A stretch of DNA of 42,987 nt from Candidatus Atribacteria bacterium. Its GTDB lineage: Bacteria > Atribacterota > Phoenicimicrobiia > Phoenicimicrobiales > Phoenicimicrobiaceae. The stretch covers positions 1-42,987 of the forward strand of contig DSEL01000181.1 in NCBI GenBank assembly GCA_011056645.1. The letters run 5' to 3'. Each line of letters starts with the position of its first letter. The stretch's first letter is position 1. Both the position numbers and the translations under genes were made by a program. This document shows positions 22,435-42,987 of the stretch, piece after piece. The notes beneath the pieces were generated by a model. That model was given only the letters and a program-made list of their open reading frames with translations, ran no database searches and was not told the DNA's origin.

Positions 22435-23319
22435 CTAATAATATTTTTTTATATAATTCTTAACCTCATCCCTGGTTCCCTTAAAAGGGCCCGGTTCTTC
22501 CATCTTTAAGGAAACCAAAGCGGCAGCAAAGAGAAGTGCTTCTTCTATCCCTTTATTTAACCTTTCAGTGATATACGTACTGAAACAGGTATCGCCCCTG
22601 CCGGTCCTTCCGGAAAGATTTCTCGGCTTTAAAGGACAAGTATAATGTTTTTTACCATCATAAATTAAAACTTCTTTATGGTGAGTGATCATAATTTCCT
22701 TGCTCCCCCACTCGAAAAGTATTTTCGCTGCTTTTTCCCTATCTTTTGTTCCGGTCATAATTTCAGCCTCGGCTGCATCAGTTTTTAAATAATCAATATA
22801 AGGGAGACATTCCTTTTTTTCCCCCCAATCTATAAAGACCATTTCCTTATTTTTCGATACATTCCTCAAAAACCCTTGAACGTCCAGGGCAACTTTCCCT
22901 TTATGATGCAGGAATCTTATCATTTCACTATTAAATTCTCCCAAGATGAGTCCGGCAAAATGATATATCCGGGAATCAATATTTTCTGGAATATCGCCAA
23001 GAGTGAAGGGATCGGCAATCGATAGAGCAGTACAGGTTCTCCTTTCTCTATCTATGCTATGATAAATATTTCTTATGGAAGTAGTGTTTTTAGAATCTAA
23101 AGCAGTAATATCTTCTTTAAAAACAGTAAATTCCTCCAAATATTTTCTATCTGATGGAGATAACTTAGTCAATATACCTATTTTATGGCCGATAGCATGA
23201 GAAGCACAGGATGAGTATAAAACTGCTCCGCCAATTTCCTTTACCATTTCTCCTTGGTATATGTTTTCATCAATAGAGATATGTCCCATTACGAAACTAT
23301 CATATTTTTTTAATTCCAC
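22435..23319 (-). CDS. PfkB-family sugar kinase (first paralogue)
   Basis: 294-residue ribokinase/PfkB-fold kinase. The N-terminal substrate region contains GGAVLYSSCASHAIGHKIG. The C-terminal anion-hole and catalytic-base motif is GRTGRGDTCFSTYI, with the conserved Asp of GxGD. The segment YLKTDAAEAEIMTGTKD is a PfkB mid-region block. The substrate is unknown; adenosine-, ribose-, inositol- or sugar-acid-type kinases all share these motifs. The start is GTG at 23319 with AAAAGGAG. It shares many segments with the kinase at 27847-28740, so the two are paralogues. It lies just downstream of the glycogen-debranching gene. Confidence 0.88.
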   Translation of the reverse strand: MELKKYDSFVMGHISIDENIYQGEMVKEIGGAVLYSSCASHAIGHKIGILTKLSPSDRKYLEEFTVFKEDITALDSKNTTSIRNIYHSIDRERRTCTALSIADPFTLGDIPENIDSRIYHFAGLILGEFNSEMIRFLHHKGKVALDVQGFLRNVSKNKEMVFIDWGEKKECLPYIDYLKTDAAEAEIMTGTKDREKAAKILFEWGSKEIMITHHKEVLIYDGKKHYTCPLKPRNLSGRTGRGDTCFSTYITERLNKGIEEALLFAAALVSLKMEEPGPFKGTRDEVKNYIKKYY

Positions 23320-27846: not shown

Positions 27847-28740
27847 ATGAAAAATACCGATAAGTTTTATGATATTGCTTTTATAGGACATTATACCAAA
27901 GATACCATCGTTTCTTCTACCGGAACCAGAGTGGTTGACGGAGGGGCTTTTAATTACGGTGCACATGTGGCAGTAAGGATGGGCCTAAAAGTAGCAGCAA
28001 TTACCCGTTTGGCAGAAGAAGATTTTTATGTAGTAGAAAAACTAAAACACCTGGGTGTGGATGTATTCGCCCATATTTCGCCTCATTCCACTTGTCTTCG
28101 TCTGGAATATCCCACTTCCAATCTTGATGAGCGAGTCATTTATGTAACCAGTTCAGCAGGTCCTTTTACTTCTGACCAAGTAAAAAAAGTCCAAGCTAAG
28201 GCAATCGTTGTTGGTGCTTCTATGCGCGGGGAGGTTAGCTTACAAGTGATAAAAGAACTATCGAAAAAGAAAACTTTCCTTTCCGCTGACGTGCAGAGCT
28301 TTATTCGGGTAAATGATAATGGTAAATTAGTCCCCAGGGAATGGCCGGAAAGAAACGACTTATTTGCTTGTTTGGATATTTTAAAAACTGATGCAGTAGA
28401 GGCAGGGCTTTTATTCGGTAAATGCGATCTCTATACTGCTGCTCAAAAAATGCACGATCTGGGACCAAAAGAAGTAATTATTACTCACCGAAATGGTGTA
28501 TTAGTCTTTGCCGATGGCAAATTTTACGAAGAAAAATTTTTACCCAAAGAAATTATAGGAAGAAGCGGTCGGGGAGATACCTGTATTGCCGCTTACACTG
28601 CTAAAAGATTAAGTGCTTCTCCTCAAGAGGCAACTGTCTGGACGGCTGCAGTAACTAGTTTAAAAATGGAAGCAGAAGGACCTTTCCAACGTACTTTGCA
28701 AGAGGTTAATAATCTTATTGATAATAAATATAAGAAGTAA
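27847..28740 (+). CDS. PfkB-family sugar kinase (second paralogue)
   Basis: 297-residue PfkB-fold kinase and paralogue of the gene at 22435-23319. Shared blocks include LKTDAVEAGLLFGK, LGPKEVIITHRNGVLVF, the catalytic GRSGRGDTCIAAYTAKRL and the tail AAVTSLKMEAEGPF. The N-terminal VVDGGAFNYGAHVAVRMGLKV is the substrate-loop region. Unlike its paralogue it has its own promoter and faces the other way, convergent with the ABC transporter operon. RBS CTGGAGAT. The substrate is unknown. Because it flanks the uronate and sugar locus, a sugar or sugar-acid substrate is a reasonable inference. Confidence 0.88.
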   Translation: MKNTDKFYDIAFIGHYTKDTIVSSTGTRVVDGGAFNYGAHVAVRMGLKVAAITRLAEEDFYVVEKLKHLGVDVFAHISPHSTCLRLEYPTSNLDERVIYVTSSAGPFTSDQVKKVQAKAIVVGASMRGEVSLQVIKELSKKKTFLSADVQSFIRVNDNGKLVPREWPERNDLFACLDILKTDAVEAGLLFGKCDLYTAAQKMHDLGPKEVIITHRNGVLVFADGKFYEEKFLPKEIIGRSGRGDTCIAAYTAKRLSASPQEATVWTAAVTSLKMEAEGPFQRTLQEVNNLIDNKYKK

Positions 28741-28815: not shown

Positions 28816-29913
28816 TCATTTTTTAATCTCTTCATAAGGGATAACATGCAAACTTTTTTCCTTTAATTTTACAGATACTTCCTCTCCTATAGAAAATATT
28901 TTATGCTCCTGAGGATTAGCAATCTCTACGGTGAGGAGATTTTTTTCAGTTTTAATTTCGTATACCATCCTAGAACCAAGATAAATCACCTGACTGATTA
29001 TACCATTAATAGCCTCTGGTTTCTTAGGTTCGAGTTCAGTAGATTCAGGCCTGATAACCAGAAAAATTCTATCTCCTTCAGTGAAGATCTTCTTAGGTGT
29101 AGACACTTTATACTTTAACCCTTCTATATCAACCTCAATTTCTTTCTGAGATAAAATAGTGGCTACTTTTCCTTCTAAAAAGTTTGCTTTGCCAATAAAA
29201 TCAGCTACAAAATAATTGACCGGGTGAGCATAGATTTCTTGAGGAGTACCTATCTGCTGAATCTTACCTGCATTCATAATAACTACTCGGTCAGAAAGAG
29301 TCACCGCCTCTTCCTGATCATGAGTAACATACACCGAAGTTATGCCAACTCTCTGCTGTATTTTTCTAATCTCTAATCGGGTAGATACTCGCATCTTGGC
29401 ATCAAGATTGGAAAGAGGCTCATCAAGTAATAATACTTTAGGTTCCATAATTAAAGAGCGGGCTAAACTAACCCGTTGCTGCTGACCTCCAGAAAGCTGC
29501 GAAGGCGACCTGTCACCTAATTCTTTCAAACCTACCAGATTCATGATCTTCTCTGTTCTTTCTCGAATAGCCTTTTCTTTCTCTTGATGAATCTTTAATC
29601 CGTAGGCAATATTTTGATATACGGTCATGTGCGGAAATAGAGCATAATTTTGAAACACCATCGTAGTGGGTCGTCGATTTGGAGGAGTGGTAGTAACATC
29701 TTCTCCGTCAATAAATATTTTCCCGGAAGTGGGAAGTTCAAAGCCAGATATCATACGAAGAGCAGTAGTCTTCCCGCACCCAGAAGGTCCTAAAAGAGTA
29801 ACTAACTCTCCTTTTTTTACTTCTAAATTGACTTTATCTACCGCTGTAACACTTTTTTTCCCACTTCCAAAAATTTTCTCTAAATTTTCAAGAACAAGAT
29901 AATCCTGTTTCAT
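28816..29913 (-). CDS. ABC transporter ATP-binding protein (FbpC/AfuC/PotA type)
   Basis: 365-residue importer ATPase. Walker A GPSGCGKTT at residues 42-50, Q-loop in VFQNYALFPHMTV, signature LSGGQQQRVSLARSL, Walker B LLLDEPLSNLD and switch histidine in YVTHDQEEA. Residues from about 240 form a TOBE domain (AHPVNYFVADFIGKANFLEG). It is the last gene of the binding protein-permease-ATPase operon, 28 nt after the permease. The CUT1-like/ferric/polyamine/phosphonate ATPases are hard to separate by sequence alone; substrate identity must come from the binding protein. Confidence 0.93.
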   Translation of the reverse strand: MKQDYLVLENLEKIFGSGKKSVTAVDKVNLEVKKGELVTLLGPSGCGKTTALRMISGFELPTSGKIFIDGEDVTTTPPNRRPTTMVFQNYALFPHMTVYQNIAYGLKIHQEKEKAIRERTEKIMNLVGLKELGDRSPSQLSGGQQQRVSLARSLIMEPKVLLLDEPLSNLDAKMRVSTRLEIRKIQQRVGITSVYVTHDQEEAVTLSDRVVIMNAGKIQQIGTPQEIYAHPVNYFVADFIGKANFLEGKVATILSQKEIEVDIEGLKYKVSTPKKIFTEGDRIFLVIRPESTELEPKKPEAINGIISQVIYLGSRMVYEIKTEKNLLTVEIANPQEHKIFSIGEEVSVKLKEKSLHVIPYEEIKK

Positions 29914-29941: not shown

Positions 29942-31651
29942 TTAGCCAACAATGTCAATAGTTCTTACGCCTTTTCCAATACGATTGACAATTAACTGGA
30001 TAATCCCTAAGGCAATTAAAACAATAACAATCAACAAATTGCACATCGCTGCTGCTTGTGCATACCTGCTATTATCTACAAAACCCAGTATAGCTATGGT
30101 AATTAAATTCCATTTACCCGATACGACAAAAATTACCGCACTGATAGCCGTCATAGCTTTTACAAAATTATAGGCAAGACCGGAGAAAAAAGCGGGGGCA
30201 ATCATCGGTAAAGTAATCCTGCGAAAAGTAGTATTACTATCTGCACCCAGATCAGTTGAGGCTTCCTCGATAGAAGGGTCAATTTGCTGCAGAGCAGCAA
30301 TTCCAGAGCGTATCCCTACCGGCATATTTCTAAATACCAAAAGAATGATGATAATCCAAGCTGTTCCGGTCATGATAAAAGGAAACAGTACAGTTCTTTG
30401 GTTAAATGCCAAGATATACCCTATGCCAACTACCGTCCCGGGAACCGCAAAAGTAAGCATGGAGATAAATTCCATTACCCCCCGGCCAATAAATTTTTTC
30501 CTTATCACCAGAAAAGAGATAAAAATGCCTATAATACCCGCTATTGGTGTAGCCACAGATGAAAGAACTAAGGAATCAATTAAATAATCTTTGCCCACTT
30601 GAAACATTTCTACATAATGTTTTAGAGTTAAGGTGGAGTTAACTCCCCAGAGAGTCTGAAAAGAACCATGAACGATGGTTCCGTAAAAAAGAAACACCAG
30701 TCCGGTAAAAATAATACAACAGGTATAGACCGGTAGTTTTATATACCATTCCAACTGTTTAATGGTGGCACCGGTAGGTTTTCCGGTAACTGTAATATAA
30801 GATTTTCGAGAAACCCAGTATTTTTGCAGAAAAAAAGCAACTATGGTAGGGATGAATAAAAGTATGGCCAGAGTAGAACCCCGAGACAAATCGTACATTC
30901 CGGTAATTTGCAAAAAAGCTTGAACTGAAAGAACTCGATAATTTCCGGAGATAACCATAGGATTTCCGAAATCAGCTAAAGATTGGATAAATACCAAAAG
31001 CCAGGCACTAGCAATGCCTGGTGTAGCTAAAGGTAAAGTAATAGTAGAGAACACTTTTGCCCTTGAAGCTCCCAAATCCATAGAAGCCTCTTCTAATGAT
31101 GGGTCAATAGCTTGAAGAATACCGTAAAGAACCAAAAAAGCTGTCGGGGCATAAGCGATAGTTTCAACCAGTATCAATCCTCCCAACCCATATATGGTAT
31201 AGTTTCCAATAATTTTAGTTAAAAGGGGATTTAGATTCCCCGCTCTCCCAAAGAGCAGAATGGCTGATAGTGCCACTACAAAGGGAGGAGAAATAATGGG
31301 AAAGGTTGCAGTCATCCGAAAAAAATTTTTAAAGGGCATCGGAGTCCTGGTAAGGGCATAAGAAAAGATAAATCCAATTACAGTACCTATGGTTGCAGTG
31401 TACACTCCTAAAAGCATACTATTTAAAAAGGGTTGATAATAATATCTTTTGGAAAAAATTGCGAAATAGTTGGAAAGATTCCATTGTTTATCAATAAATA
31501 AGCTCGTTTTAAAGACTTGAAATATCGGAAATACTACAAAGACTATCAGGCAATAAAAAATCGCCAGAATAGATACAAATAGCAACGGTTCTTTCCATAT
31601 TAAGCGTAGATTTCCGGTGACTTCCTGTATTTTTCTCTTTGAGCTACTCAT
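29942..31651 (-). CDS. ABC transporter permease, fused double domain
   Basis: 569-residue permease in which two BPD_transp_1 units are joined, the FbpB/AfuB/PhnU-like layout. About 12 membrane helices are visible. EAA loops occur in both halves: EEASMDLGASRAKVFSTITL and EEASTDLGADSNTTFRRITL, each ending in the IxLPLxxP-type coupling segment that contacts the ATPase. The RBS is modest (GGGCGG). It follows the binding-protein gene after a strong intercistronic hairpin at 31689-31733, which would lower permease relative to binding-protein levels. Confidence 0.92.
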   Translation of the reverse strand: MSSSKRKIQEVTGNLRLIWKEPLLFVSILAIFYCLIVFVVFPIFQVFKTSLFIDKQWNLSNYFAIFSKRYYYQPFLNSMLLGVYTATIGTVIGFIFSYALTRTPMPFKNFFRMTATFPIISPPFVVALSAILLFGRAGNLNPLLTKIIGNYTIYGLGGLILVETIAYAPTAFLVLYGILQAIDPSLEEASMDLGASRAKVFSTITLPLATPGIASAWLLVFIQSLADFGNPMVISGNYRVLSVQAFLQITGMYDLSRGSTLAILLFIPTIVAFFLQKYWVSRKSYITVTGKPTGATIKQLEWYIKLPVYTCCIIFTGLVFLFYGTIVHGSFQTLWGVNSTLTLKHYVEMFQVGKDYLIDSLVLSSVATPIAGIIGIFISFLVIRKKFIGRGVMEFISMLTFAVPGTVVGIGYILAFNQRTVLFPFIMTGTAWIIIILLVFRNMPVGIRSGIAALQQIDPSIEEASTDLGADSNTTFRRITLPMIAPAFFSGLAYNFVKAMTAISAVIFVVSGKWNLITIAILGFVDNSRYAQAAAMCNLLIVIVLIALGIIQLIVNRIGKGVRTIDIVG

Positions 31652-31764: not shown

Positions 31765-32769
31765 TTATTTTCCTATTCTATCTCTCCAAGCAGTAACCAA
31801 TTCATCTTTGTGCTCGCCTGCCCAGATTGCGTCATAGTCGATTAATTTTACTTTATCTAAAGTTACTGAACCTTCGGCAACTGTTGCTTTCGGATTTACC
31901 GGTAAACGGTTATATTTCTGGAATAAATCCTGGGCTTTTTTGGTAAAACACCAGTCAATAAATTGCTTTGCTAATTCCGGTTCCGGTCCGCCTTTAATTA
32001 AAGATAATCCTCCTACTTCATAACCAGTTCCTTCTAAGGGGAAGGTCATAACCACTGGATATCCTTCATTTACACCTTTGGCGAGGATATCGTGGGAGAA
32101 AGCAATACCAACTGCTATTTCACCTAATCCTACCATCGGTATACATCCGGTTCCGGATTTTGTATACTGAAAAATACTTTGCTTATCAAATTCTTCCCAC
32201 CAATTCAGGGCTTTTTCCAGACCAACCATTTGGACCAGAGTTGCATAAGTAGTGTAGGAAGTACCAGAAGTATAGGGATAAGCTATCGCAACGTTTTGTT
32301 TGAAAGCTGGGTTTAAAAGATGAGACCAGGAAGTCGGTGCTTCTACATTATGTTCCTTTAAAAAATTCACATTAGATACAAAGCCGATTGCCCCGGTGTA
32401 AAATCCGGTCCAAGCCCAATCCTTTGCATGTAAAATATCTTTTAATTCAAAATCGGTATTAGGTTTATACGGTTCAAGTAATCCTTTAGATGCTGCATTT
32501 ATATGAGAGGTATTGGAACCTGCATGCCACATGCTTGCTTGAGGATTAGCCGCTTCTGCTTCTATTCGGGCTAATACTTCACCGGAAGACATTCTCACCC
32601 ATTCTACATCAATTCCCGTTTCTTTCTCAAAAGCCTCAATGTAATACTGAGCTTCTTCGGTATCAAATGCTGTATACATATGAAGCACCTTGCCTGCTGC
32701 CAGACCTGTTACTAAAATACTGCACAACATAACAATAACCATTAATAATGTAAAAGTTAATTTTTTCAT
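31765..32769 (-). CDS. ABC transporter substrate-binding protein (AfuA/FbpA-like)
   Basis: 334-residue periplasmic binding protein of the type 2 (cluster D) fold. Signal peptide at residues 1-25, ending TGLAAG. Family blocks are LHMYTAFDTEEAQYYIEAFE, SLIKGGPEPELAKQFIDWC and KKAQDLFQKYNRLPVNP. The paired iron-binding tyrosines of true ferric binding proteins are not evident at the expected C-terminal half position. AfuA homologues of this group bind hexose phosphates, and others bind 2-aminoethylphosphonate or thiamine. Because HAD phosphatase, PFK and Gnd genes lie next door, a sugar-phosphate ligand is my preferred inference. RBS AGGAGG is strong. Confidence 0.88.
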   Translation of the reverse strand: MKKLTFTLLMVIVMLCSILVTGLAAGKVLHMYTAFDTEEAQYYIEAFEKETGIDVEWVRMSSGEVLARIEAEAANPQASMWHAGSNTSHINAASKGLLEPYKPNTDFELKDILHAKDWAWTGFYTGAIGFVSNVNFLKEHNVEAPTSWSHLLNPAFKQNVAIAYPYTSGTSYTTYATLVQMVGLEKALNWWEEFDKQSIFQYTKSGTGCIPMVGLGEIAVGIAFSHDILAKGVNEGYPVVMTFPLEGTGYEVGGLSLIKGGPEPELAKQFIDWCFTKKAQDLFQKYNRLPVNPKATVAEGSVTLDKVKLIDYDAIWAGEHKDELVTAWRDRIGK

Positions 32770-32925: not shown

Positions 32926-33969
32926 TTATAATATTAGCAGTCTGCCTTGGGGATTAAATTTTCTATATAAGGTTTTTCTTATCTCTTGTCTTTCTCTGTA
33001 AGACCTTTGGTGATCATAACCATTTTTCTGCCATGGCGGAGAAGTAAAGAGTCCTTGATTAAATACCTGTAAAAGCCAATCTTCATATTCACCTTTATAT
33101 TTTCTTTTAATAAATCTTTGAAATGCTCCGGGGAAATCATGCCATGCTTTCTGTTCTTGACCTGGAGGCGTAGGATAAAAAAGCCCGTTATTTGCTTTAA
33201 CTGCTTTTAAATCGCCTCCACCATCACCAATCATCATCACCTGATCATCTTCATACTTGCCTGCTTTTTTGGCAATCTCAATATGATGCTGTTTTGACCC
33301 CATTTCCTGACCAGCAATAATCTGAGCGTATTGAGCAATCCCTTGAGCTTCCCAATAGTTTGCTAAATCTGAGTATGGTGTTTTAGAAACAATTAATATA
33401 TCAGCAGATTGAGTAATTAATTCTAAACATTCTTTTACTTGATTAAAAGGCGGCATCTTTGCAGAAATATAGGGAAATGTTCTGTTAACTGCTTCACTCC
33501 ATCCTAAAAGTTTATATAAAGCAAAATTTTTGGGATTTTTATGGATAAATCCTTCCAAACTTGGATTCCCCAAACCTAATTTATTTTCCTTGGTATAAGC
33601 GATATATTCATTCAGGGATTTTATATCGGGTAGCTTGACATGCCTTTCCTGTACCACTCGCTGAACATCTGCTCTATTTTGAAGAGCGGTAAGGATAAGT
33701 TGAATGGCAATAAATCTATTACACCCTCTATCTATAGAAAAAAGATTATAATATTCGGCAATTTCCCGGAAGTAAGATTCAATCTCCCATAATTGGTAAA
33801 ATTCCATAAATTGAGGGTGAAAAATTAACATCTGTTTTCCATTCATATTGTCGGTAACACAACCGTCGGTATCGATAGCAACCAAAAAATCTTTTGTTCT
33901 TTTAAATTTTCTTAATTGTTGTTCCGCGTCTTCCTTTATCTGTTCTTCGGTAAGCCTGGGTAAAGCCAT
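32926..33969 (-). CDS. HAD-superfamily hydrolase, large-cap type
   Basis: 347-residue HAD protein. Motif I is VAIDTDGCVTDNM (two Asp), motif II VSKTPYSD, the lysine is probably in GSKQHHIEIAKK, and motif IV MMIGDGGGDLKAVK. A long helical cap of about 150 residues separates motifs I and II, and the C-terminal 60 residues are basic and aromatic. It is likely a phosphatase for a small phosphorylated metabolite. It lies downstream of the PPi-PFK gene (gap about 120 nt holding a heptamer hairpin) and upstream of the ABC operon. If the transporter brings in a sugar phosphate, this enzyme could remove the phosphate inside the cell. Confidence 0.82.
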   Translation of the reverse strand: MALPRLTEEQIKEDAEQQLRKFKRTKDFLVAIDTDGCVTDNMNGKQMLIFHPQFMEFYQLWEIESYFREIAEYYNLFSIDRGCNRFIAIQLILTALQNRADVQRVVQERHVKLPDIKSLNEYIAYTKENKLGLGNPSLEGFIHKNPKNFALYKLLGWSEAVNRTFPYISAKMPPFNQVKECLELITQSADILIVSKTPYSDLANYWEAQGIAQYAQIIAGQEMGSKQHHIEIAKKAGKYEDDQVMMIGDGGGDLKAVKANNGLFYPTPPGQEQKAWHDFPGAFQRFIKRKYKGEYEDWLLQVFNQGLFTSPPWQKNGYDHQRSYRERQEIRKTLYRKFNPQGRLLIL

Positions 33970-33991: not shown

Positions 33992-34099
33992 AAGTAATAA
34001 GTAATATGTAATTAGTAATAAAACTATAGTTCTGGATTTATAGAAACAGGTTACTTGTTACTGGTTACTAGTTACTGATTACTTATTACTTATTACTTC
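33992..34099. repeat. Inverted pair of heptamer arrays (empty hairpin element)
   Basis: The right part (34051-34099) is seven tandem 7-mers of pattern TTACTNN: TTACTTG, TTACTGG, TTACTAG, TTACTGA, TTACTTA, TTACTTA, TTACTTC. The left part (33992-34021) is an inverted copy; its reverse complement matches 34069-34098 at 26 of 30 positions. The unit lies between pfp and the HAD gene, and the pfp stop codon is inside the array. Confidence 0.8.
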
Positions 34100-35409
34100 T
34101 TTCTATCCTCTACTGGTACATATTCTTCGCATTTCTTCGTAATATATATCTCTTTAAATTTTGCAAATCGAGGTAAGGGTTCACCGATTAAAGGTAAAGC
34201 CCAATTTATAAATTCATCGGTTACGTCTACCCTATTGGAGCAAATCCATTTTTTGGGAAATTCCCTTTCTGAATTTGCCACGATATCTAATGGTATTTTA
34301 CCATAATTTACCTTATAAGGTAAATTAGGATTTCTTATAATTGTGGACATAAAAGCATTTTCTCCTGATAAGGCAATTTTAACGGCATATGCCCCCACCT
34401 GATAAGCCTCATTTCTATCAACGTTGGATACATAGGCAATCTCTCTCCTTTGGCGGGTACCTGGCCTTTCTGAGCGAGCTATTCCTCTAATTATCAACCG
34501 ACTTTGTGCTCTTCCCTGAGCATCTTTCCTATCGATTCCATTAAGGTAATTAGTAACTACCTGTTCTACTGTCCTTTCAGAAGCACTAAATTGAGCATGG
34601 CCAAAGTTATCCCGGAGTATTCCCAAATCACCTACTTCTACTCCCTCCCCAATCACTACTATACACCTTCTATATTTACTTAATTTTTCATTTACCCTTT
34701 CAGTTAACAACTCTAAATTACCCTGATAATCATCTTTAGATAGAGATTCTGGAAGAATGATTAGTAAAGGCATATCTCTTTTGGGATCAGCGAGTCTTGC
34801 CGCCGCCGGGATAAAACCTATCTTTCTTCCCATGACTCCGATTATCAAAACCGGATCGCTGGTATAGCTAGCCTTGTTCTCCTCATTTGCTTCCAATATA
34901 TTAATAGCTAAATTACGGGCAACGCTTCCATATCCGGGATCGTGATCACATATTGCAAATGTTCCATCATCTTGCAATGGACCTCCTACGTCGTTATCAA
35001 TAGTTTTAGGTACGCCGGTACAAATCAACGCTAAATTTTCTTTTTGGGCTAATTTGCTTACTTTGTTAGCTGTATCCATGGAGTCTCCGCCTCCACAGTA
35101 GAAGAAATATCCAACATCGTGCCTCTTAAAAACCTCAATAATACGTTCCAGATCCTCATCATTTTTTATTTTGTACCTACAACTGCCTATTGTTCCTGCA
35201 GATGCAGTTTCTGCTAATAGAGCTATTTGATGTGGTTCCTGAGCAGAAATATCTATTAATTCTTCTTTTAGAACCCCAAGAATACCCATCTTTGAACCAT
35301 ATATTTTATCAACTTTTTTAGAAGAAATTAATTGGTCAATCACTCCCCTAATACTATTATTAATCACCGAGGTTGGACCGCCTGATTGGGCAATAATTAC
35401 GTTCTTCAT
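34093..35409 (-). CDS. pfp: PPi-type 6-phosphofructokinase
   Basis: 438-residue phosphofructokinase family member. Two residues that set phosphoryl donor point to pyrophosphate: D109 in CGGGDSMDT (where ATP enzymes have Gly) and K135 in GVPKTIDND (where ATP enzymes have Gly). The position before D109, usually Asp or Asn, is Gly here, which is unusual. MGRKIGFIPAAARLAD and the C-terminal substrate loop are normal. The reversible PPi enzyme works in glycolysis and gluconeogenesis and can also phosphorylate sedoheptulose 7-phosphate in anaerobes lacking transaldolase. That would fit a pentose-phosphate role beside gnd. RBS AAAGGAG. Confidence 0.9.
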   Translation of the reverse strand: MKNVIIAQSGGPTSVINNSIRGVIDQLISSKKVDKIYGSKMGILGVLKEELIDISAQEPHQIALLAETASAGTIGSCRYKIKNDEDLERIIEVFKRHDVGYFFYCGGGDSMDTANKVSKLAQKENLALICTGVPKTIDNDVGGPLQDDGTFAICDHDPGYGSVARNLAINILEANEENKASYTSDPVLIIGVMGRKIGFIPAAARLADPKRDMPLLIILPESLSKDDYQGNLELLTERVNEKLSKYRRCIVVIGEGVEVGDLGILRDNFGHAQFSASERTVEQVVTNYLNGIDRKDAQGRAQSRLIIRGIARSERPGTRQRREIAYVSNVDRNEAYQVGAYAVKIALSGENAFMSTIIRNPNLPYKVNYGKIPLDIVANSEREFPKKWICSNRVDVTDEFINWALPLIGEPLPRFAKFKEIYITKKCEEYVPVEDRKK

Positions 35410-35493: not shown

Positions 35494-36771
35494 CTATTTT
35501 ATTTTGTAAAGATACTTCCCGCCATTTTCAATCCATAGTTTCCCTGGTCCGATGAAATCTTTCTGATGAATTGAATCCGGATTCCGATAACCCAACCCTA
35601 CTGATTCACAAATTTCTTTCGAAATTCCAGTAGCTAAAGTAACTTTAAAGTCAAAATCTTCTTTTCCGGAATTAATATCATATTTTCCTGTCCCCCTTAC
35701 ATTAATCACGTGAGCAGCTATATTTTTACTAAATTTAGGATTTATTTCTGTATATTTCTTTACATAATCTTTGCAATGATAACCTATTTGCCTTAAGGCA
35801 AGATCCATCTTTGATCGGGAATGAAAGCACTTGATATGAGGAGCATAAATAATAATTTCTCCACCTGGAGCCATAACTCCGGGACTCTGCAATTTATAAG
35901 AACCTTTCCCGGCAGTCCAAATTTCATCATAACTCTGGTCAATAACCTGAACTGCACAATCAAGGGGCTCATCTATATAAATCACATGAATTTTCGAACT
36001 TAATTTTGCCGCTTGTTTATAAGTTTCGATAAAGCCATTAAATCCTACATCTACATATAAACCTTTGGGTATTACTTGGTGCCCTTTTTCTTGAAAGACC
36101 ATATTAAAAGAAATAACGGGAGCCTTTATCCGGTCAAAAATATAAGAAGCTCCCTGTTTTATCACTTCTCGAGCAGGATTATCTACTGTGCCGATAATTC
36201 GAGGAATACCGATAAGAACCGCTGCCCAGTGCAGTAAATCTATCACCTCCGGACCAGAACTACCCGGGAAAAACACCTTTAATCCTCCCGCATAACCGGC
36301 GGATTCATGAGGTAATGTTCCACTTAAGGCAATAATCAGATCATAATCTTCGGTAATTAACTTATTTACCACTATCGTTATAGACTGAGAAAGATCTCCT
36401 TGAGTTTTCTCAGCGACAAAAGAAGCAGGGATTTCCCCCATGTTTATTAGTTTTTGAGGGTTATTATATTCATGATTATAAAAATGGTTAAAATTAATTT
36501 CAGAAGAGAGCCCCAACTTTTCCCGAATTTCTATTTCAGTCATCGCTCTATGAGTTCCACCGGCGTTTAAAGAATCAATTTTACTCATTCCTTTATTTTT
36601 TAACTCTTCATAGATAAAAGGAACTAATTTATCGGTAAAGTCTGTTCTGGTATAATCAGGATGGATTAATAGAACTTTTTTTACCGAATAAAAATCTTTC
36701 AGACCTTCCTTTACAATTTCTTCTAATTGTTCATCCGTCAATTCTCCATTGAGATCCTCAATTGAAAGCAC
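35494..36771 (-). CDS. LarA-superfamily nickel-pincer racemase/epimerase
   Basis: 425-residue DUF2088/LarA homologue. LarA carries a covalent nickel-pincer nucleotide and shuttles hydride at a 2-hydroxy acid. Here H155, K165 and H181 (PHESAGYAGGLKVFFPG then LLHWAAV) keep exactly the spacing of LarA H174, K184 and H200, and D39/R42 (PDYTRTD) and H74 (GGTHR) match other active-site positions. So an active pincer enzyme is expected. Homologues include lactate and malate racemases and a D-gluconate 2-epimerase. Between gnd and pfp and downstream of the uronate genes, a sugar-acid substrate is the best inference. The start is GTG with GGGAGG. LarB, LarC and LarE are not in the window. Confidence 0.88.
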   Translation of the reverse strand: MLSIEDLNGELTDEQLEEIVKEGLKDFYSVKKVLLIHPDYTRTDFTDKLVPFIYEELKNKGMSKIDSLNAGGTHRAMTEIEIREKLGLSSEINFNHFYNHEYNNPQKLINMGEIPASFVAEKTQGDLSQSITIVVNKLITEDYDLIIALSGTLPHESAGYAGGLKVFFPGSSGPEVIDLLHWAAVLIGIPRIIGTVDNPAREVIKQGASYIFDRIKAPVISFNMVFQEKGHQVIPKGLYVDVGFNGFIETYKQAAKLSSKIHVIYIDEPLDCAVQVIDQSYDEIWTAGKGSYKLQSPGVMAPGGEIIIYAPHIKCFHSRSKMDLALRQIGYHCKDYVKKYTEINPKFSKNIAAHVINVRGTGKYDINSGKEDFDFKVTLATGISKEICESVGLGYRNPDSIHQKDFIGPGKLWIENGGKYLYKIK

Positions 36772-36786
36772 ATTAATCCTCCCTCT

Positions 36787-36825
36787 TTAGATATAGTGAT
36801 AAGTGATAAGTGACGAGTAATAAGA
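36787..36825. repeat. Heptamer array, left side of four-helix-bundle gene
   Basis: Units GTGATAA, GTGATAA, GTGACGA, GTAATAA follow each other at 7-nt spacing. This is the inverted orientation relative to the array at 37117-37163. It encodes the last residues of the four-helix-bundle protein. Confidence 0.6.
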
Positions 36826-37104
36826 AAAAAAGAAAAAACTGTATTTAAAATTATTTAAATATTCTAACCCGTTTGCAATAATAATTTGCGTTTCAAGTTC
36901 AGATAATGATCCTAGGGCTATGTATAAAAATTGAATAAATTCTTTTTTAGAACTTCTTGCCGCACCTTCAGCAATATTTGAAGGAACAGAAACCGCTGCT
37001 CTTCTTATTTGGTTTGTTAAACCATACAGTTCTTTGTTGGGAAAAGACTCAGTAATTCTGTAAATATTACTGACCAAATCCATACTTTTTTTCCAAACTT
37101 CCAA
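36787..37104 (-). CDS. Four-helix-bundle protein (23S rRNA intervening-sequence protein family)
   Basis: About 105 residues of the S23/four-helix-bundle family (PF05635 type). The core VWKKSMDLVSNIYRIT, FPNKELYGLTNQIRRAAVSV and PSNIAEGAARSSKKEFIQFL is well kept. No ATG precedes the conserved start: the frame runs from an upstream TGA through NHKDLEVWKK, so the initiator is probably TTG at 37104 and the natural start may be lost. The C-terminal stretch after NFKYSF (SYYSSLITYHYI) is encoded by a heptamer array. No 23S rRNA, reverse transcriptase or variable repeat is nearby, so its role is unknown. Confidence 0.75.
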   Translation of the reverse strand: MEVWKKSMDLVSNIYRITESFPNKELYGLTNQIRRAAVSVPSNIAEGAARSSKKEFIQFLYIALGSLSELETQIIIANGLEYLNNFKYSFFFFSYYSSLITYHYI

Positions 37105-37116
37105 ATCTTTGTGATT

Positions 37117-37163
37117 TCTTACTTCTTTACTTATTATTCCTCACTCATTACTCATTACTCATT
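37117..37163. repeat. Heptamer array, right side of four-helix-bundle gene
   Basis: Includes TTACTTC, TTTACTTATTATTCC and three clean units of TCACTCAT/TTACTCA type (about 37140-37161). The gnd stop codon TGA (37159-37161) lies in the last unit. With the left array it forms a degenerate inverted repeat around the four-helix-bundle gene. Confidence 0.6.
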
Positions 37164-38649
37164 TTGTCCATTCCTTCTCCGGGCGTTCGCGTTCCATCCA
37201 TTCTGTATGAAATTCTCTCATTTTTCCTTCCTGCGTAGTCATGACTTCCGGATCATCTAATCCTTTAATTTTAAAATAACCATGAGCTCCAAAATAATCT
37301 CTTTGTAAGGCTGATACTTGAGCAGATACCATAATTGGGCTGGTTAGCTGAAGAACATAATCAAAAGCATTATTCATCGCCGGAGCAGGTACTTTTACCC
37401 AATGAGCAATTTCTATAAAATTAGCTAATTTATTAAGACTTTGCTTAACTACCAAGGCGAATCGAGGAGCAGTTAAAAGGCTAGGTATTTCCGGATTCTC
37501 TTGATAAGCTTTGGTAACTTCATCTAAAAACTGAGCTCGAATTATACAACCGCTTCGCCACCCTTTAACAATTTCTCCTAGATTAAGCTCCCATTCATAT
37601 TTTTTAGAAGCAGCCTGTAATAAAGCCATACCTTGAGCATAAGAAGAAATTTTAGCCAGATATAGGGCATCATGAGCGATTTTAATAAATTGCTCTTTTT
37701 CTCCTACATATTTTTCTTTAGAAATAGATATCTCTTTGGAAACTTGTATCCTTAAATCTTTGTCTTGAGACATCTCTCGAGAGAAAACCGCCGCAGTAAT
37801 AGTGGGAATGGGGACTAATAATTCCAAAGCGCTTTGTACTGTCCAGGTACCTGTTCCTTTCATCCTGGTAATATCAGCTGTTCGATCAACTAGATATTCA
37901 CTGCTCTTTTTATCTTTCTCTTTCATGCTTTCTCCGGTAATTTCTATCAAATACGATCGTAAAACATCCTCTTCTTTGTTCCACTCAGCTATAATATGAG
38001 CGATTTCTAATGAACTCATATTTAAAGCATTTTTAAACACCCAGACACATTCACCGATTAATTGCATATCTCCATATTCAATACCATTATGGACCATTTT
38101 CACAAAATGACCTGCTCCATCAGGTCCTATATAGGATACACAGGGAACACCATCATAAGCCTTAGCAGCAATTTTCTTGAATAGGTCTTTAACCAAGGAG
38201 TAGGCTTCTTTCTGTCCGCCAGGCATGATAGCCGGTCCTTTTAATGCTCCTTCTTCTCCCCCGGAAATACCTGTACCGATAAATAATAATCCTAGATCAT
38301 TTAATTCTTTATTGCGCCTTATTGTATCTTTAAAATAAGAATTTCCGGCATCAATGATTAGGTCTCCTTTATCCAGTAAAGGAACGAGTTTTAATATAAA
38401 ATCATCAACCGGTTTTCCCTGCTTTACCAGCAAGATTATCTTACGAGGGGATTCTAAGGAATCTACAAATTCCTCTAAAGAATAAGCTGGAAATATATTT
38501 TTCCCCCGGGCTGCTCCTCTAGCAAAATCTTCTGCTTTGGCACTGGTTCTATTATATACAGCTACAGAATAACCCTTATCCTCCATATTTAAAATTAAAT
38601 TTTGTCCCATTACTCCTAAGCCGATCAATCCGATATCTTTCTTTTTCAT
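37159..38649 (-). CDS. gnd: 6-phosphogluconate dehydrogenase, decarboxylating
   Basis: 496-residue 6-phosphogluconate dehydrogenase giving ribulose 5-phosphate, CO2 and NAD(P)H. The N-terminal nucleotide motif is IGLGVMGQNLILNM; the next acidic/basic region is VYNRTSAKAEDF, the segment that sets NADP against NAD preference. The catalytic motif GTGISGGEEGALKGPAIMPGG is split here only by length, and the catalytic lysine is in HFVKMVHNGIEYGDMQLI. MKGTGTWTVQSALEL binds substrate. It lies within the uronate region, followed by the four-helix-bundle and LarA-like genes. No 6-phosphogluconolactonase, G6P dehydrogenase or gluconate kinase is visible in the window. RBS AAAAAGGAG. Confidence 0.95.
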   Translation of the reverse strand: MKKKDIGLIGLGVMGQNLILNMEDKGYSVAVYNRTSAKAEDFARGAARGKNIFPAYSLEEFVDSLESPRKIILLVKQGKPVDDFILKLVPLLDKGDLIIDAGNSYFKDTIRRNKELNDLGLLFIGTGISGGEEGALKGPAIMPGGQKEAYSLVKDLFKKIAAKAYDGVPCVSYIGPDGAGHFVKMVHNGIEYGDMQLIGECVWVFKNALNMSSLEIAHIIAEWNKEEDVLRSYLIEITGESMKEKDKKSSEYLVDRTADITRMKGTGTWTVQSALELLVPIPTITAAVFSREMSQDKDLRIQVSKEISISKEKYVGEKEQFIKIAHDALYLAKISSYAQGMALLQAASKKYEWELNLGEIVKGWRSGCIIRAQFLDEVTKAYQENPEIPSLLTAPRFALVVKQSLNKLANFIEIAHWVKVPAPAMNNAFDYVLQLTSPIMVSAQVSALQRDYFGAHGYFKIKGLDDPEVMTTQEGKMREFHTEWMERERPEKEWTK

Positions 38650-38914
38650 CTATATTTTCTCCTTTTTAATCATATTAATTATTTGGCCAGTTGTCCAGTT
38701 ACTCGGTTTGTTAGTTATTAAATTACATAGAGTTGTTTATTCGAAACCTGTAACCTGCAACCCATAAACAAAAACTCATCACTCATTGCTCATTACCGTA
38801 TTGCAATCTATTCAACGCTCTACACTCTTGTTTTGTCTCCTGACTTCTGTATTCTATATTCCTAATTCTTTCTTTCTCTTCCTCTTCACTATATACTATA
38901 TACCATATACTAAT
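38650..38914. repeat. 265-bp spacer filled with heptamer-like repeats
   Basis: Between the SDR gene and gnd. From 38746 to 38808 nine 7-nt units follow in phase (ACCTGTA, ACCTGCA, ACCCATA, AACAAAA, ACTCATC, ACTCATT, GCTCATT, ACCGTAT, TGCAATC). At 38888-38915 ACTATAT, ACTATAT, ACCATAT and ACTAATT lead directly into the SDR stop codon. No coding region or clear promoter is visible. Confidence 0.55.
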
Positions 38915-39739
38915 TTATACTCCCGAGAAAGCACTAAACCCTCCATCGACAGGAACAACGATTCCGGTGACAAATTTTGCGGCATCAGAAGCCAGCCAAA
39001 TGCAGGCACCGATTAAATCTTCAGGATCTCCAAAATTACCCATCGGAGTGTGGGCAATAACCAATTGTCCTCTTGGTGTTAAGTCACCTTTTTCAGTGGT
39101 AAGTAGATATCGGTTTTGGGTAGTTAAGAAGAACCCCGGAGCCAGTGCGTTCACTCGTAATTTTTTATTATATTCTTGAGCAAAATGTACGGCCAACCAC
39201 TGGGTAAAATTGCTTACCGCTGCCTTGGCGGCAGAATAACCAGATACCTTGGTAAGAGGACGATAAGCACTCATAGAAGAAATGTTTATGATAGAACCAC
39301 CTTCTGTGTTTTTTATCATATCCTTTCCAAAAATTTGAGAAGGAAGCATAGCACCTCCAAAAAGATTAAGTCCCACTACTTTTTCTAAAGCGGAAAGTGG
39401 TAAATCAAAAAATTTTAGATCCTCCGAGGTGGTAGCTTCTTTCATATTCCCCCCTGCCGCATTAATCAAGATATCTATTTTACTAAAATTTTCAATTAAT
39501 TCATCCCGACAGATTTTAATCTTTTTAATATCCATCACATCTAGATAATAACCTTTAGCTTCTATCCCTTCTGATTTTAATTCTTGGGCAACTTTATCAG
39601 CATTTACAATATCACATATGGCTATCCTGGCGCCTGCTTTGCCTAACCCTCGGGCAATAGCAGAACCTAAAATTCCTCCGCCTCCGGTAATCGCTACATT
39701 CTTCCCTTCTAAACTAAACATTTGTAAATTTTCCTTCAT
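38915..39739 (-). CDS. uxuB: SDR-type D-mannonate oxidoreductase (fructuronate reductase)
   Basis: 274-residue short-chain dehydrogenase. The nucleotide-binding motif is TGGGGILGSAIARGLG; N of INAAGGN; catalytic Ser, Tyr and Lys in ISSMSAYRPLTKVSGYSAAKAA. The end DGGFSAFSGV resembles the YjmF-type enzymes that reduce D-fructuronate to D-mannonate in bacteria lacking the long-chain UxuB. The position immediately after uxaC and uxaE strengthens this reading. The symbol is functional rather than based on homology to E. coli UxuB. RBS GGAGGG. Its stop codon abuts a heptamer array. Confidence 0.82.
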   Translation of the reverse strand: MKENLQMFSLEGKNVAITGGGGILGSAIARGLGKAGARIAICDIVNADKVAQELKSEGIEAKGYYLDVMDIKKIKICRDELIENFSKIDILINAAGGNMKEATTSEDLKFFDLPLSALEKVVGLNLFGGAMLPSQIFGKDMIKNTEGGSIINISSMSAYRPLTKVSGYSAAKAAVSNFTQWLAVHFAQEYNKKLRVNALAPGFFLTTQNRYLLTTEKGDLTPRGQLVIAHTPMGNFGDPEDLIGACIWLASDAAKFVTGIVVPVDGGFSAFSGV

Positions 39740-39785
39740 TATTCCCTCCTCCTTGTGTTCAATAGTTTATTAAAAAATTTCTCTC

Positions 39786-39885
39786 TTTCTGTCATTGCGA
39801 GCTTGCCCGAGACAAGCGTGGCAATCTCAACTATTGGTATATAACGTATTTTTTTATGTAGGGGGCGGATTCATCTGCCCCGGTA
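39786..39885. repeat. Two intergenic repeat elements in tandem
   Basis: TGTCATTGCGAG and CGTGGCAATCTC (about 39794-39830) are the two halves of a repeat I know from many bacterial genomes. They are followed by a palindrome of GGGGGCGGATTCATCTGCCCC type (about 39860-39880), another common element. Both fall between uxaE and the SDR gene. Confidence 0.6.
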
Positions 39886-39923
39886 TTTACTCATTAATTA
39901 TTACACATTACTTGTTACTGTAT
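39886..39923. repeat. Heptamer array at the uxaE stop codon
   Basis: Five units in phase: TTACTCA, TTAATTA, TTACACA, TTACTTG, TTACTGT, then ATTTAT containing the uxaE stop. The last part is nearly identical to the array beside the DUF6485-like gene. Confidence 0.6.
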
Positions 39924-41423
39924 TTATATACTAACTAAAAGTACCAAATGTCTCCTGATATGATTAGAAAGTTCCCTATAATGCTCTTCTTCGTAATCAA
40001 ATAATACTTTATAGATTCTATCTTTATAAATATATTTTCCTCTATCGTCCTTATCCTTGAGAATAGATCCATAAGTTATGTGAATAAGTTGTCGAGAGTC
40101 ATTCTGTTTAAAAAGACTTGCCAATTCATTATCAGAAACTTCATCTAAATTGGGTATACGGGATAGGTCAGTGGTTAAATTGTATGATGCTCTATCTTTT
40201 TCAAAATTCTCCAAAGCAAATCGATGAATTTCCCGATAAAGAGCCGGGTTTTTCATAGCAATAACTTTTACTTCCTCTAACCAGCTAGTCCCGGCAGTTT
40301 TAATATGACAAAAGCTATCGGTCTCCCGAGAAAAAATAGGATAAACAGAAAACTTATCACTCCCGGTGTGAAGGGAAAGTTTATAGCCACCAATACTTTT
40401 ACTTAAAGCTGCGTGCAGAGAAAATTCCCTGGCAAATTCCTCTACATTTCCTATATACTCTATCCCTTTTTGCCAATCTCCTAAGAAATGAAGGGCTAAA
40501 TTCTGAAAATCTACTCCTCTTCTATGAAGTTCTAAGACAATAAATAGATGAGCCAGAGGAGAAGTAACTGTAGGGGTTTCATCTACAGATATTTCTAAAT
40601 CAAATTTTTCCTTTTTGTAACCTGTTAAGAATTCATAACATCTCAACACGTGATTTAGCGCTTCAGAATAAGTAATTATAATTTCTTTTAATGATTGGTC
40701 GTCAAAAATTAATTCTTTCCCATTAACCTTATATGATTTACCTAAATACAATTTTTTTATTTCCTTACAATTAGGAATTTGATTATAAAGTTGGTCTAAT
40801 TCTTGCTTACCTAACTTTTCAATATCATTTCTGATAAAATCGGAAGGGTCTACGGTGAACATTGTAAAGCCACAATCTACCGCTTCTTTCAGCTCTTTAA
40901 TATTTTTTACATGATCGGCATCCGCCCCAAAAGGACCTTCATATCCCGCTTCAAAACAACCCCAAATCGCATCATCTAAAACTTTCTGCCAATTTCTCTC
41001 GGTTCGAGCCATCTCTCTAACCGATTGCTGGGCTAAAATCGGAAAAATATCTTTACCCAGAAAAGCCTGAAGATGGGCTGGAGTAGCTATACCCAATCGA
41101 TCTCCAGTGCCAAAAGAAGCCCTTATACCACAAAAAGAAGGATTTAGGTGCGGGAATATTTCTCGTAATAGAGAAAGATTAAGATGGTTTAAATAACATT
41201 TCTTTATAGCCAATTTATTTTCATCCGCTATCTTCTCTTCTAAATTCTCCCCTTCAAATTTATTAGTAAGATCAGGAGCTGCAAAAATTATCAAATTTTT
41301 TTCTTTATCACCTTTCGCCATAAAAAAATAATTATCTTTTTCTGACATTATAGAAGATGAATATGCCTTATATCTATCACTATGATACTTATCAAAATAC
41401 TGTAAAATATCCTGTTTATTCAT
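39924..41423 (-). CDS. uxaE: Tagaturonate epimerase
   Basis: 499-residue member of the UxaE family, which interconverts D-tagaturonate and D-fructuronate at C4 and so merges galacturonate with glucuronate catabolism. The signature SFGTGDRLGIATPAHL is clear, and FGADADHVK, LEISVDETPTVTSPLAH, LHTGSDKFSVYPIF and HIKTAGTSWLEE match the rest of the family, including metal-binding His and Glu candidates. Its ATG lies 8 nt inside uxaC, indicating translational coupling, with GGGAGAG as ribosome site. With the SDR gene downstream, both hexuronates can be reduced to mannonate. Confidence 0.9.
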   Translation of the reverse strand: MNKQDILQYFDKYHSDRYKAYSSSIMSEKDNYFFMAKGDKEKNLIIFAAPDLTNKFEGENLEEKIADENKLAIKKCYLNHLNLSLLREIFPHLNPSFCGIRASFGTGDRLGIATPAHLQAFLGKDIFPILAQQSVREMARTERNWQKVLDDAIWGCFEAGYEGPFGADADHVKNIKELKEAVDCGFTMFTVDPSDFIRNDIEKLGKQELDQLYNQIPNCKEIKKLYLGKSYKVNGKELIFDDQSLKEIIITYSEALNHVLRCYEFLTGYKKEKFDLEISVDETPTVTSPLAHLFIVLELHRRGVDFQNLALHFLGDWQKGIEYIGNVEEFAREFSLHAALSKSIGGYKLSLHTGSDKFSVYPIFSRETDSFCHIKTAGTSWLEEVKVIAMKNPALYREIHRFALENFEKDRASYNLTTDLSRIPNLDEVSDNELASLFKQNDSRQLIHITYGSILKDKDDRGKYIYKDRIYKVLFDYEEEHYRELSNHIRRHLVLLVSI

Positions 41424-42873
41424 TAAACTCTCCCTTTAAATTAAATAACCTCATTTGATTTTCATACATCAAAGCTTTCAACGCTTTCACTCCCCCATTA
41501 TAGGTTATTTGCCCACTCGAAACAAGGGAACCTATGACTTTACTTATTATTCTGTCAAATACTTCAAATCTACTCCCCTCTGACAAAATTTTTCTGCCAT
41601 CACAAACTGGGCCCCCGCTTGAGGTAAGAAGAGACGATCCAGCAGTATGTAGCAGATATTGTTCCATCACATAAGGACTATCATTATGCCACCAGGGAAA
41701 TCCAGAGTGAACCTTAGGAAAAGCCCTTTCTAACATCAAATTAGTATGAGCAAAAATTTGATTCATGGGATATAAAATTAAATGACCTTGATTCTCGCTT
41801 TCTCCGCTAAAAAATCTTGATAATAGAGGTTGTAAATTCTCTATGATATTTACGTTGTCAGCTGAAACATCACCTCCTACATCAGTTCCCCATTTTTCAA
41901 ATAAATACTCGTTAGCATTTCTGACCGCACCATAATGTATCTGCGTAACCATTCCTTTTTCTTGATTCAAAGCACAGAATTGGTGCATCATAAAGGAAAT
42001 AAATTCTTTTGTTTCAAGAGATCTCAGACCAAACTTCTTTCCCTTATTATAAGCTTGCTGAAAAATTTCTTCCGCTCTTTTCAAACTGATTTTTAAACCA
42101 TAGGGCTCCAACAAGCCATGATCACTTGCCCTTGCCCCTCTCTCTGCAAAATAAGCATACCTCATACTTAAAGCCTCCATAAGACCTTTAAGTGTTGTTT
42201 CACGTTTAGTTAATTGGCAGATTTTTTCCACATTTGCTTTCCACTGATCATCAAAGATATTACAATAAGCATCAGGCCTAAAGGTAGGTAAAAAAGTAAT
42301 ACCTTCTATGTTTCTGGACACCTTATGATATTCCAGATCATCTATCGGATCATCGATTGTAAAAATAATTTTTGCTCCGATTTTCTTCAGGATAGATTGT
42401 GGTAACATATCTTTTTTCTGTAAGCGATCATTCGCTTTTTCCCATACTCTATCTGCGGTCTCAACGGATAATATTTCTTCTATGCCGAACATTCTTTTCA
42501 AATCTAAATGCATCCACTGATGGACATGGTTTCCCTCAAGATAAGGAAAAACTCCGCACAAGGCCTTCCATTTATCATAATCTGAAATTTGAGGATCTCT
42601 AGCCAAAGCCTGGGAAAAACCAGGGAATTTTGCAGCCAATTGAATAATATAATGATCACAGTTTTTATATTCTCCCCTTGTCTCAAGAACTTCAGCTCTC
42701 CAAATATTGGGAAAAGGTTTATTTTCCACAATTTGCCTTAGATTATGATGAGTATGAGTATCAAAAATCCCCACCTCTTTTCTTAAGGGAACTGCAACTT
42801 CATGGTATAATTTTACACCTTCAGTTGTATCCAATAACCAATCTTTACCTAAAAATTTATCTTTTGTCTTCAT
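41416..42873 (-). CDS. uxaC: Glucuronate/galacturonate isomerase
   Basis: 485-residue uronate isomerase of the amidohydrolase superfamily. It converts D-glucuronate to D-fructuronate and D-galacturonate to D-tagaturonate. The metal site starts at FDTHTHHNL; ITFLPTFRPD, MVTQIHYGAVRN, FPKVHSGFPWWHNDSPYVMEQYL and TSSGGPVCDGRK are family blocks. The start ATG has the strong site AAAGGAGG. It is the first complete gene of the uronate operon in this window. Its promoter cannot be read because the sequence folds back into an exact reverse complement only 52 nt upstream. Confidence 0.93.
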   Translation of the reverse strand: MKTKDKFLGKDWLLDTTEGVKLYHEVAVPLRKEVGIFDTHTHHNLRQIVENKPFPNIWRAEVLETRGEYKNCDHYIIQLAAKFPGFSQALARDPQISDYDKWKALCGVFPYLEGNHVHQWMHLDLKRMFGIEEILSVETADRVWEKANDRLQKKDMLPQSILKKIGAKIIFTIDDPIDDLEYHKVSRNIEGITFLPTFRPDAYCNIFDDQWKANVEKICQLTKRETTLKGLMEALSMRYAYFAERGARASDHGLLEPYGLKISLKRAEEIFQQAYNKGKKFGLRSLETKEFISFMMHQFCALNQEKGMVTQIHYGAVRNANEYLFEKWGTDVGGDVSADNVNIIENLQPLLSRFFSGESENQGHLILYPMNQIFAHTNLMLERAFPKVHSGFPWWHNDSPYVMEQYLLHTAGSSLLTSSGGPVCDGRKILSEGSRFEVFDRIISKVIGSLVSSGQITYNGGVKALKALMYENQMRLFNLKGEFNE

Positions 42874-42987
42874 AATTAACCTCCTTTAGCTATTACTATC
42901 CATTTAAAAATAATATTTTACAAATATTTGTAAAATATTATTTTTAAATGGATAGTAATAGCTAAAGGAGGTTAATTATGAAGACAA
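42864..42987. repeat. Perfect 124-bp palindrome at window end
   Basis: 42864-42925 and 42926-42987 are exact reverse complements with no spacer; the centre is CAAATATTTG. The right half repeats the uxaC ribosome site and first codons in the opposite direction and runs to the last base. A chimeric fold-back at a contig end is the simplest explanation. Confidence 0.9.

Follow-up and report, generated by a model that had tools for sequence, protein, structure and literature searches.

The gene cluster described here is best read as a GntE-type (Thermotoga-type) hexuronate operon that supplies the pentose phosphate pathway by way of gluconate, a reading of the whole pathway to which we give a probability of about 85%. 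It lies in a window of 42,987 nucleotides, the whole stretch of DNA that was analysed, which is one complete contig of an Atribacterota genome of 2.25 Mb and 96.6% completeness. In this pathway, galacturonate and glucuronate would be isomerised by UxaC, tagaturonate would be linked to fructuronate by UxaE, fructuronate would be reduced to D-mannonate by a short-chain oxidoreductase (SDR), and mannonate would be epimerised to gluconate by the nickel-pincer enzyme GntE; a kinase would then produce 6-phosphogluconate, which Gnd would decarboxylate to ribulose 5-phosphate. The enzyme assignments rest on homology and conserved residues, and we infer the flux. Such a pathway had been held to be undescribed in an earlier note on this DNA, wrongly: according to PMC3750489 and PMC6978723, Rodionova et al. 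proposed in 2012 that Thermotoga maritima epimerises mannonate to gluconate, on which GntK and Gnd then act, and the epimerase activity of GntE2 was shown in 2020, probably letting mannonate into the pentose phosphate pathway (PMC7583248). In addition, galacturonate epimerase and isomerase genes have been reported in Atribacterota JS1 (PMC10826368). The pathway is thus already known; what is new is a genome with neither a recognised mannonate dehydratase nor a recognised gluconate kinase, having a phosphofructokinase (PFK) gene at the gntK position.

The genes of the window were called from open reading frames and family models (Pfam, NCBIfam). On the minus strand, they are transcribed in the order uxaC, uxaE, SDR mannonate oxidoreductase, gnd, LarA-like gene, PFK-A-family gene, HAD gene and AfuABC-like ABC transporter. 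The uronate isomerase gene uxaC (41416-42873) matches PF02614 with 313 bits and NCBIfam PRK02925 with 342 bits, under the 387 cut-off of the latter model, and is followed by uxaE, a tagaturonate-fructuronate epimerase gene (39924-41423; PF16257, 603 bits), by the SDR gene of the uxaD/uxuB type (38915-39739; NCBIfam PRK08277 'D-mannonate oxidoreductase', 350 bits, cut-off 281) and by gnd, encoding a decarboxylating NADP-dependent 6-phosphogluconate dehydrogenase (37159-38649; NF006765, 598 bits, cut-off 413; TIGR00873, 581 bits, above cut-off). Then come gntE, for a predicted LarA-superfamily D-mannonate/D-gluconate 2-epimerase (35494-36771), the PFK-A-family paralog of the PRK14072 group, a candidate phosphotransferase (34093-35409), and its partner, a HAD-superfamily protein of 347 aa (32926-33969). 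The genes uxaC, uxaE, SDR, gnd, LarA-like and PPi-PFK of the earlier note are real and share one strand; however, the range given for them, 35494-42873, leaves the PFK gene outside, and the HAD gene, to which the conserved unit reaches, was missed.

A small open reading frame of the 23S_rRNA_IVP (four-helix-bundle) type is inserted between gnd and gntE (36787-37104, minus strand; PF05635, 134 bits over a 91-aa stretch), with short GTAATGAG-like repeats on its flanks, and is outside the pathway. The contig ends in a perfect palindrome of 124 bases (42864-42925 / 42926-42987), an inverted repeat whose 62-bp arms adjoin without a spacer. It repeats the beginning of uxaC in mirror image and is most likely an assembly fold-back, so the sequence upstream of uxaC is not trustworthy. 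In one relative (L045, 393-1852), uxaC is broken into two open reading frames. Regarding regulation, the intergenic gaps hold short tract-like repeats only, nothing convincing as a shared operator motif, and no RNA element exceeded the threshold.

The LarA-like protein matches 4NAR, which is T. maritima GntE2, assayed as a D-mannonate/D-gluconate 2-epimerase (PMC7583248), with 53% identity across 416 aligned positions (phmmer 8e-152). The residues compared were those named in PMC7583248, plus the aligned aspartate and histidine, and all are identical: the NPN-binding R41, K164 and H180 of GntE2 correspond to R42, K165 and H181, the catalytic D38, H73, H154 and K287 to D39, H74, H155 and K289, and the substrate residues E155, S156, G286 and N348 to E156, S157, G288 and N350. 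The NCBIfam hexonate-epimerase model (group 18) gives this protein 197 of 500 bits, which is consistent with its membership of a separate GntE2 group. Moreover, the genes for NPN biosynthesis, larE, larB and larC, stand side by side as an operon on another contig (C150), all above their cut-offs, where their absence would have spoken against the proposal. The assignment as a mannonate/gluconate 2-epimerase of the GntE type is thereby well supported by sequence comparison. In other Atribacterota families (G014-G038, e.g. loci L109-L114), the LarA homologs are distant, with 34-39% identity, and are possibly group 18 hexonate epimerases; relatives of both LarA and the PFK found in a plasmid collection were all distant.

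The order of epimerisation and phosphorylation could be reversed, with mannonate phosphorylated first and 6-phosphomannonate then epimerised to 6-phosphogluconate, as in Lactobacillus suebicus, where this order was shown in cell extracts with the genes unidentified (PMC6978723). It is very unlikely here, as the nearest characterised epimerase, GntE2, uses unphosphorylated mannonate (KM 17 mM, kcat 197 per s; PMC7583248) and its substrate residues are all kept.

Neither UxuA mannonate dehydratase nor enolase-type (MR_MLE) dehydratases were found in the genome, a MAG of 231 contigs, and both searches gave matches in control genomes, five of them for UxuA, T. maritima included. A Pfam scan of window ORFs likewise showed no mannonate dehydratase and no KDPG aldolase, in agreement with the earlier note; its claim that KDG kinase is also missing is not assertable, because two PfkB genes are present. 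A uxuA/kdgK/kdgA set elsewhere in the genome had been named as evidence against the route, and half of such a set exists: a KDPG aldolase gene (kdgA) and a KDG-kinase-like gene (kdgK) lie on contig C218, with no mannonate dehydratase. This speaks against the pathway reading in so far as a KDG route runs for some other substrate; the position of kdgA-kdgK beside a TRAP transporter suggests that KDG is handled from another source. Taken with the identity to GntE2 and the larE/larB/larC genes, the lack of uxuA and MR_MLE matches leaves the proposed sequence from mannonate through gluconate and 6-phosphogluconate to Gnd well supported.

A canonical gluconate kinase was not found in the genome, where FGGY and GntK types were both searched: none of its eight full FGGY kinases (three glycerol kinases, one rhamnulokinase-like, one xylulokinase and three others) reached the gluconokinase cut-off, and no GntK-type P-loop kinase scored above its cut-off. 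FGGY proteins of this genome and of the sampled PFK-bearing relatives do not group with the gntE-adjacent gntK, and in G041, whose completeness is rated at 100%, gntE and the PFK occur with no gntK-like FGGY match at 1e-40. A possible bacterial microcompartment locus lies near several FGGY kinases (L013 1098-7339, G000 C185), with PduL-, RpiB-, aldehyde dehydrogenase- and PduS-like genes judged by eye.

As a single candidate, the PFK-A paralog downstream of gntE is the most likely aldonate kinase, a tentative assignment that we place below even odds. It would phosphorylate gluconate (or mannonate) at the C6 hydroxyl, probably with PPi, at the place where an FGGY gluconate kinase stands in Thermotoga, and the carboxylate of the aldonate would fill the pocket usually holding the 6-phosphate. 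The paralog scores 349 bits against the 273 cut-off of the PRK14072 PPi-PFK model (NF010675) and belongs to a clade with 67-87% identity among its members and about 34-40% at most to other PRK14072 members aligned. All nine aligned clade members retain TIDND, the PPi-type D104 and K124, MGR, E222, R243 and R252. They carry clade-specific inserts: 10 residues following TIDND, about 18 ahead of the R243 region and 6 beyond the PE motif; the other PRK14072 members aligned lack those following TIDND and close to the 6-phosphate site. In the E. coli PfkA sequence used for the residue table, the TIDND motif lies where it should. The idea that lost 6-phosphate-binding arginines prove a new acceptor was rejected, since the R243 and R252 equivalents are kept and position 162 varies across the whole PRK14072 group; the AlphaFold model of the paralog was unusable (mean pLDDT 47.6).

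The retention of typical catalytic and F6P-contact residues means that the active site demands no new substrate; the residues may permit F6P or S7P and equally an aldonate with its carboxylate in the phosphate pocket. It is accordingly a serious possibility, though short of an even chance, that the paralog is an ordinary PPi-PFK acting on F6P and/or S7P to channel pentose phosphate pathway output, with a gluconate kinase elsewhere that escapes recognition. Besides the residues of its PRK14072 group, PPi-PFKs that use S7P are established (PMC7029132, PMC12203962), and the earlier suggestion of S7P as substrate is possible in itself but lacks specific support. Three further PFK-A genes are already present in the genome, one of them beside fba, and a transaldolase-like gene (a weak match to models) adjoins rpiB and a transketolase-type subunit, both of which count against this role, as do the clade inserts, the failure to find an ordinary gluconate kinase in the genome and the equivalent operon of T. 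maritima, whose gene list contains no PFK gene.

Two further observations concern other PFK-A genes. The one beside fba (L059 from 6457, G000 C67) has one in-frame TAG. Another paralog (L060 9077-10276, G000 C182), in a ROK/ABC sugar operon and with relatives in L076, L077, L078 and L082, has lost the 6-phosphate pocket (R243E, H249S, R252M) and carries D104G with K124 retained; it is a PFK fold whose acceptor has probably changed.

The distribution of the paralog follows that of GntE. Among 50 sampled Atribacterota genomes, with GntE counted at a minimum of 64% identity, the PFK clade is present in 15, GntE in 14 of those, and every GntE-bearing genome (14/14) has the PFK clade; the lone copy without GntE (G007) sits at a contig end. 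The co-occurrence has a Fisher p of 1.6e-11 overall and of 0.003 and 0.005 inside each of two families, values that ignore relatedness. The block uxaE-SDR-(gnd)-gntE-PFK-HAD is found again in Atribacterota, Aerophobetes and Pseudothermotoga, so the linkage is not due to chance. In Pseudothermotoga (L048) it forms a tight run, uxaE-SDR-gntE-PFK-HAD, in which gaps of 2 and 3 bases follow gntE and the PFK gene, and in Aerophobetes (L044) the clade gene adjoins gntE. In L049 (1959-4469, G006), gntE and the PFK paralog form a single 836-aa ORF, either a true fusion or a sequence error.

Other gntE loci have gntK-like genes of the FGGY family. In L051, gntE is followed by a gene for an FGGY kinase most similar to PDB 3GBT 'gluconate kinase', and L050, which has gntE, holds a nearby FGGY gene that is a 55% relative of it; in gntE genomes with this FGGY gntK, a PFK of the present clade was not seen near gntE. 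The swap of kinase family after gntE resembles non-orthologous displacement, an argument of guilt by association. On this basis, it is conceivable, if not yet probable, that a PFK-A paralog, paired with a dedicated HAD protein, became a PPi-dependent gluconate/mannonate 6-kinase and displaced GntK in Atribacterota, Aerophobetes and some Pseudothermotoga. Among 13 orthologs of the HAD protein, identity is 63-84% and the DTDG, S/T, K and GDxxxD motifs are invariant; the protein matches HAD_2 weakly, its model is of moderate quality (pLDDT 63.6) and Foldseek matches are to generic HAD folds only. If the PFK is an aldonate kinase, this partner could, speculatively, be an accessory phosphatase.

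PfkB-family kinases, which many relatives have near the cluster, are another, if unlikely, candidate for the phosphorylation of gluconate. This family already includes a sugar-acid kinase, KDG kinase, and in a sister family a PfkB gene follows the HAD gene at a distance of about 80-540 bp and in the same orientation (L086, L087, L088, L089, L096, L046). The window itself holds a relative of that gene with about 55% identity by tblastn (22435-23319, minus strand; PF00294) and another PfkB, a convergent neighbour of the cluster (27847-28740, plus strand; PF00294), whose ortholog is also close to the cluster in several relatives. However, neither belongs to the operon, the Aerophobetes contig L044 showed no PfkB, the PfkB of Pseudothermotoga L048 is in a separate cluster of opposite orientation, and the KDG-kinase similarity of the convergent gene is weak (38 bits).

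The HAD gene is followed on the minus strand by genes for an AfuA-like sugar-phosphate-type solute-binding protein (31765-32769; phmmer 3.7e-49 to 4R72), a fused, AfuB-like ABC permease (29942-31651; PF00528) and an AfuC-like ABC ATPase (28816-29913; PF00005 and TOBE_2). The AfuA ligand residues S37, T150, H205, D206 and E229 are identical in the solute-binding protein in the HMMER alignment to 4R72, where positions were counted by hand with an offset of 2 in the chain numbering. Import of sugar phosphates by the transporter is therefore possible. The PFK and HAD proteins could accordingly serve this transporter, the PFK handling imported hexose or heptose phosphates and the uronate genes being merely adjacent, and one genome (G010; L092 499-4371, C54) has a second AfuABC-like set between gntE and the PFK paralog. 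We consider this improbable, as in L044, L046, L048, L088, L089 and L096 the PFK-HAD pair follows gntE and AfuABC genes are missing immediately downstream, which makes the link to gntE the more general one and places the transporter outside the core.

The cluster yields a cheap and concrete prediction, namely which enzyme phosphorylates gluconate in GntE bacteria that lack a gluconate kinase. A literature search found no PFK-type gluconate kinase and no identified mannonate kinase gene; if the aldonate kinase assignment is true, the paralog would be, within the literature searched, the first known case of a PFK-A enzyme that uses a sugar acid, and sediment Atribacterota would gain a PPi-using, redox-balanced fermentation of pectin uronates. 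If it is not, the cluster would be a slight variation on an already published pathway.

Compared to known systems, the epimerase has its cofactor, catalytic and substrate residues in common with GntE2/LarAH20 (PDB 4NAR, Desguin 2020), an assayed enzyme, whereas the activity of the Atribacterota protein is predicted. The PFK paralog shares with the PRK14072 PPi-PFKs (PDB 3K2Q, 3HNO) the fold, the catalytic TIDND, the PPi-type donor residues and the R243/R252 anion pocket, and differs from them in its low identity, in its extra segments near the acceptor site and in its fixed linkage to gntE. The transporter resembles the hexose/heptose-phosphate system AfuABC in its solute-binding protein and five ligand residues; however, it is linked here to uronate genes, and its substrate is predicted. 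In L. suebicus, the isomerase-phosphoketolase hybrid pathway likewise leads from hexuronate through mannonate to 6-phosphogluconate with no mannonate dehydratase, but phosphorylation precedes epimerisation, opposite to the order proposed here. A close parallel, described by Rodionova et al. in 2012 as cited in PMC3750489 and PMC6978723, is the T. maritima UxaR locus, aldH-pelB-gnd-uxaRED-gntEK, where gnd, uxaE, the SDR gene (uxaD) and gntE also stand together and the same route from mannonate through gluconate and 6-phosphogluconate to ribulose 5-phosphate is proposed. That species has an FGGY gntK after gntE and retains a kdgAK-uxuBA operon, whereas in the present genome gntK and uxuA were not found and gntE is followed by the PFK-A paralog and the HAD gene.
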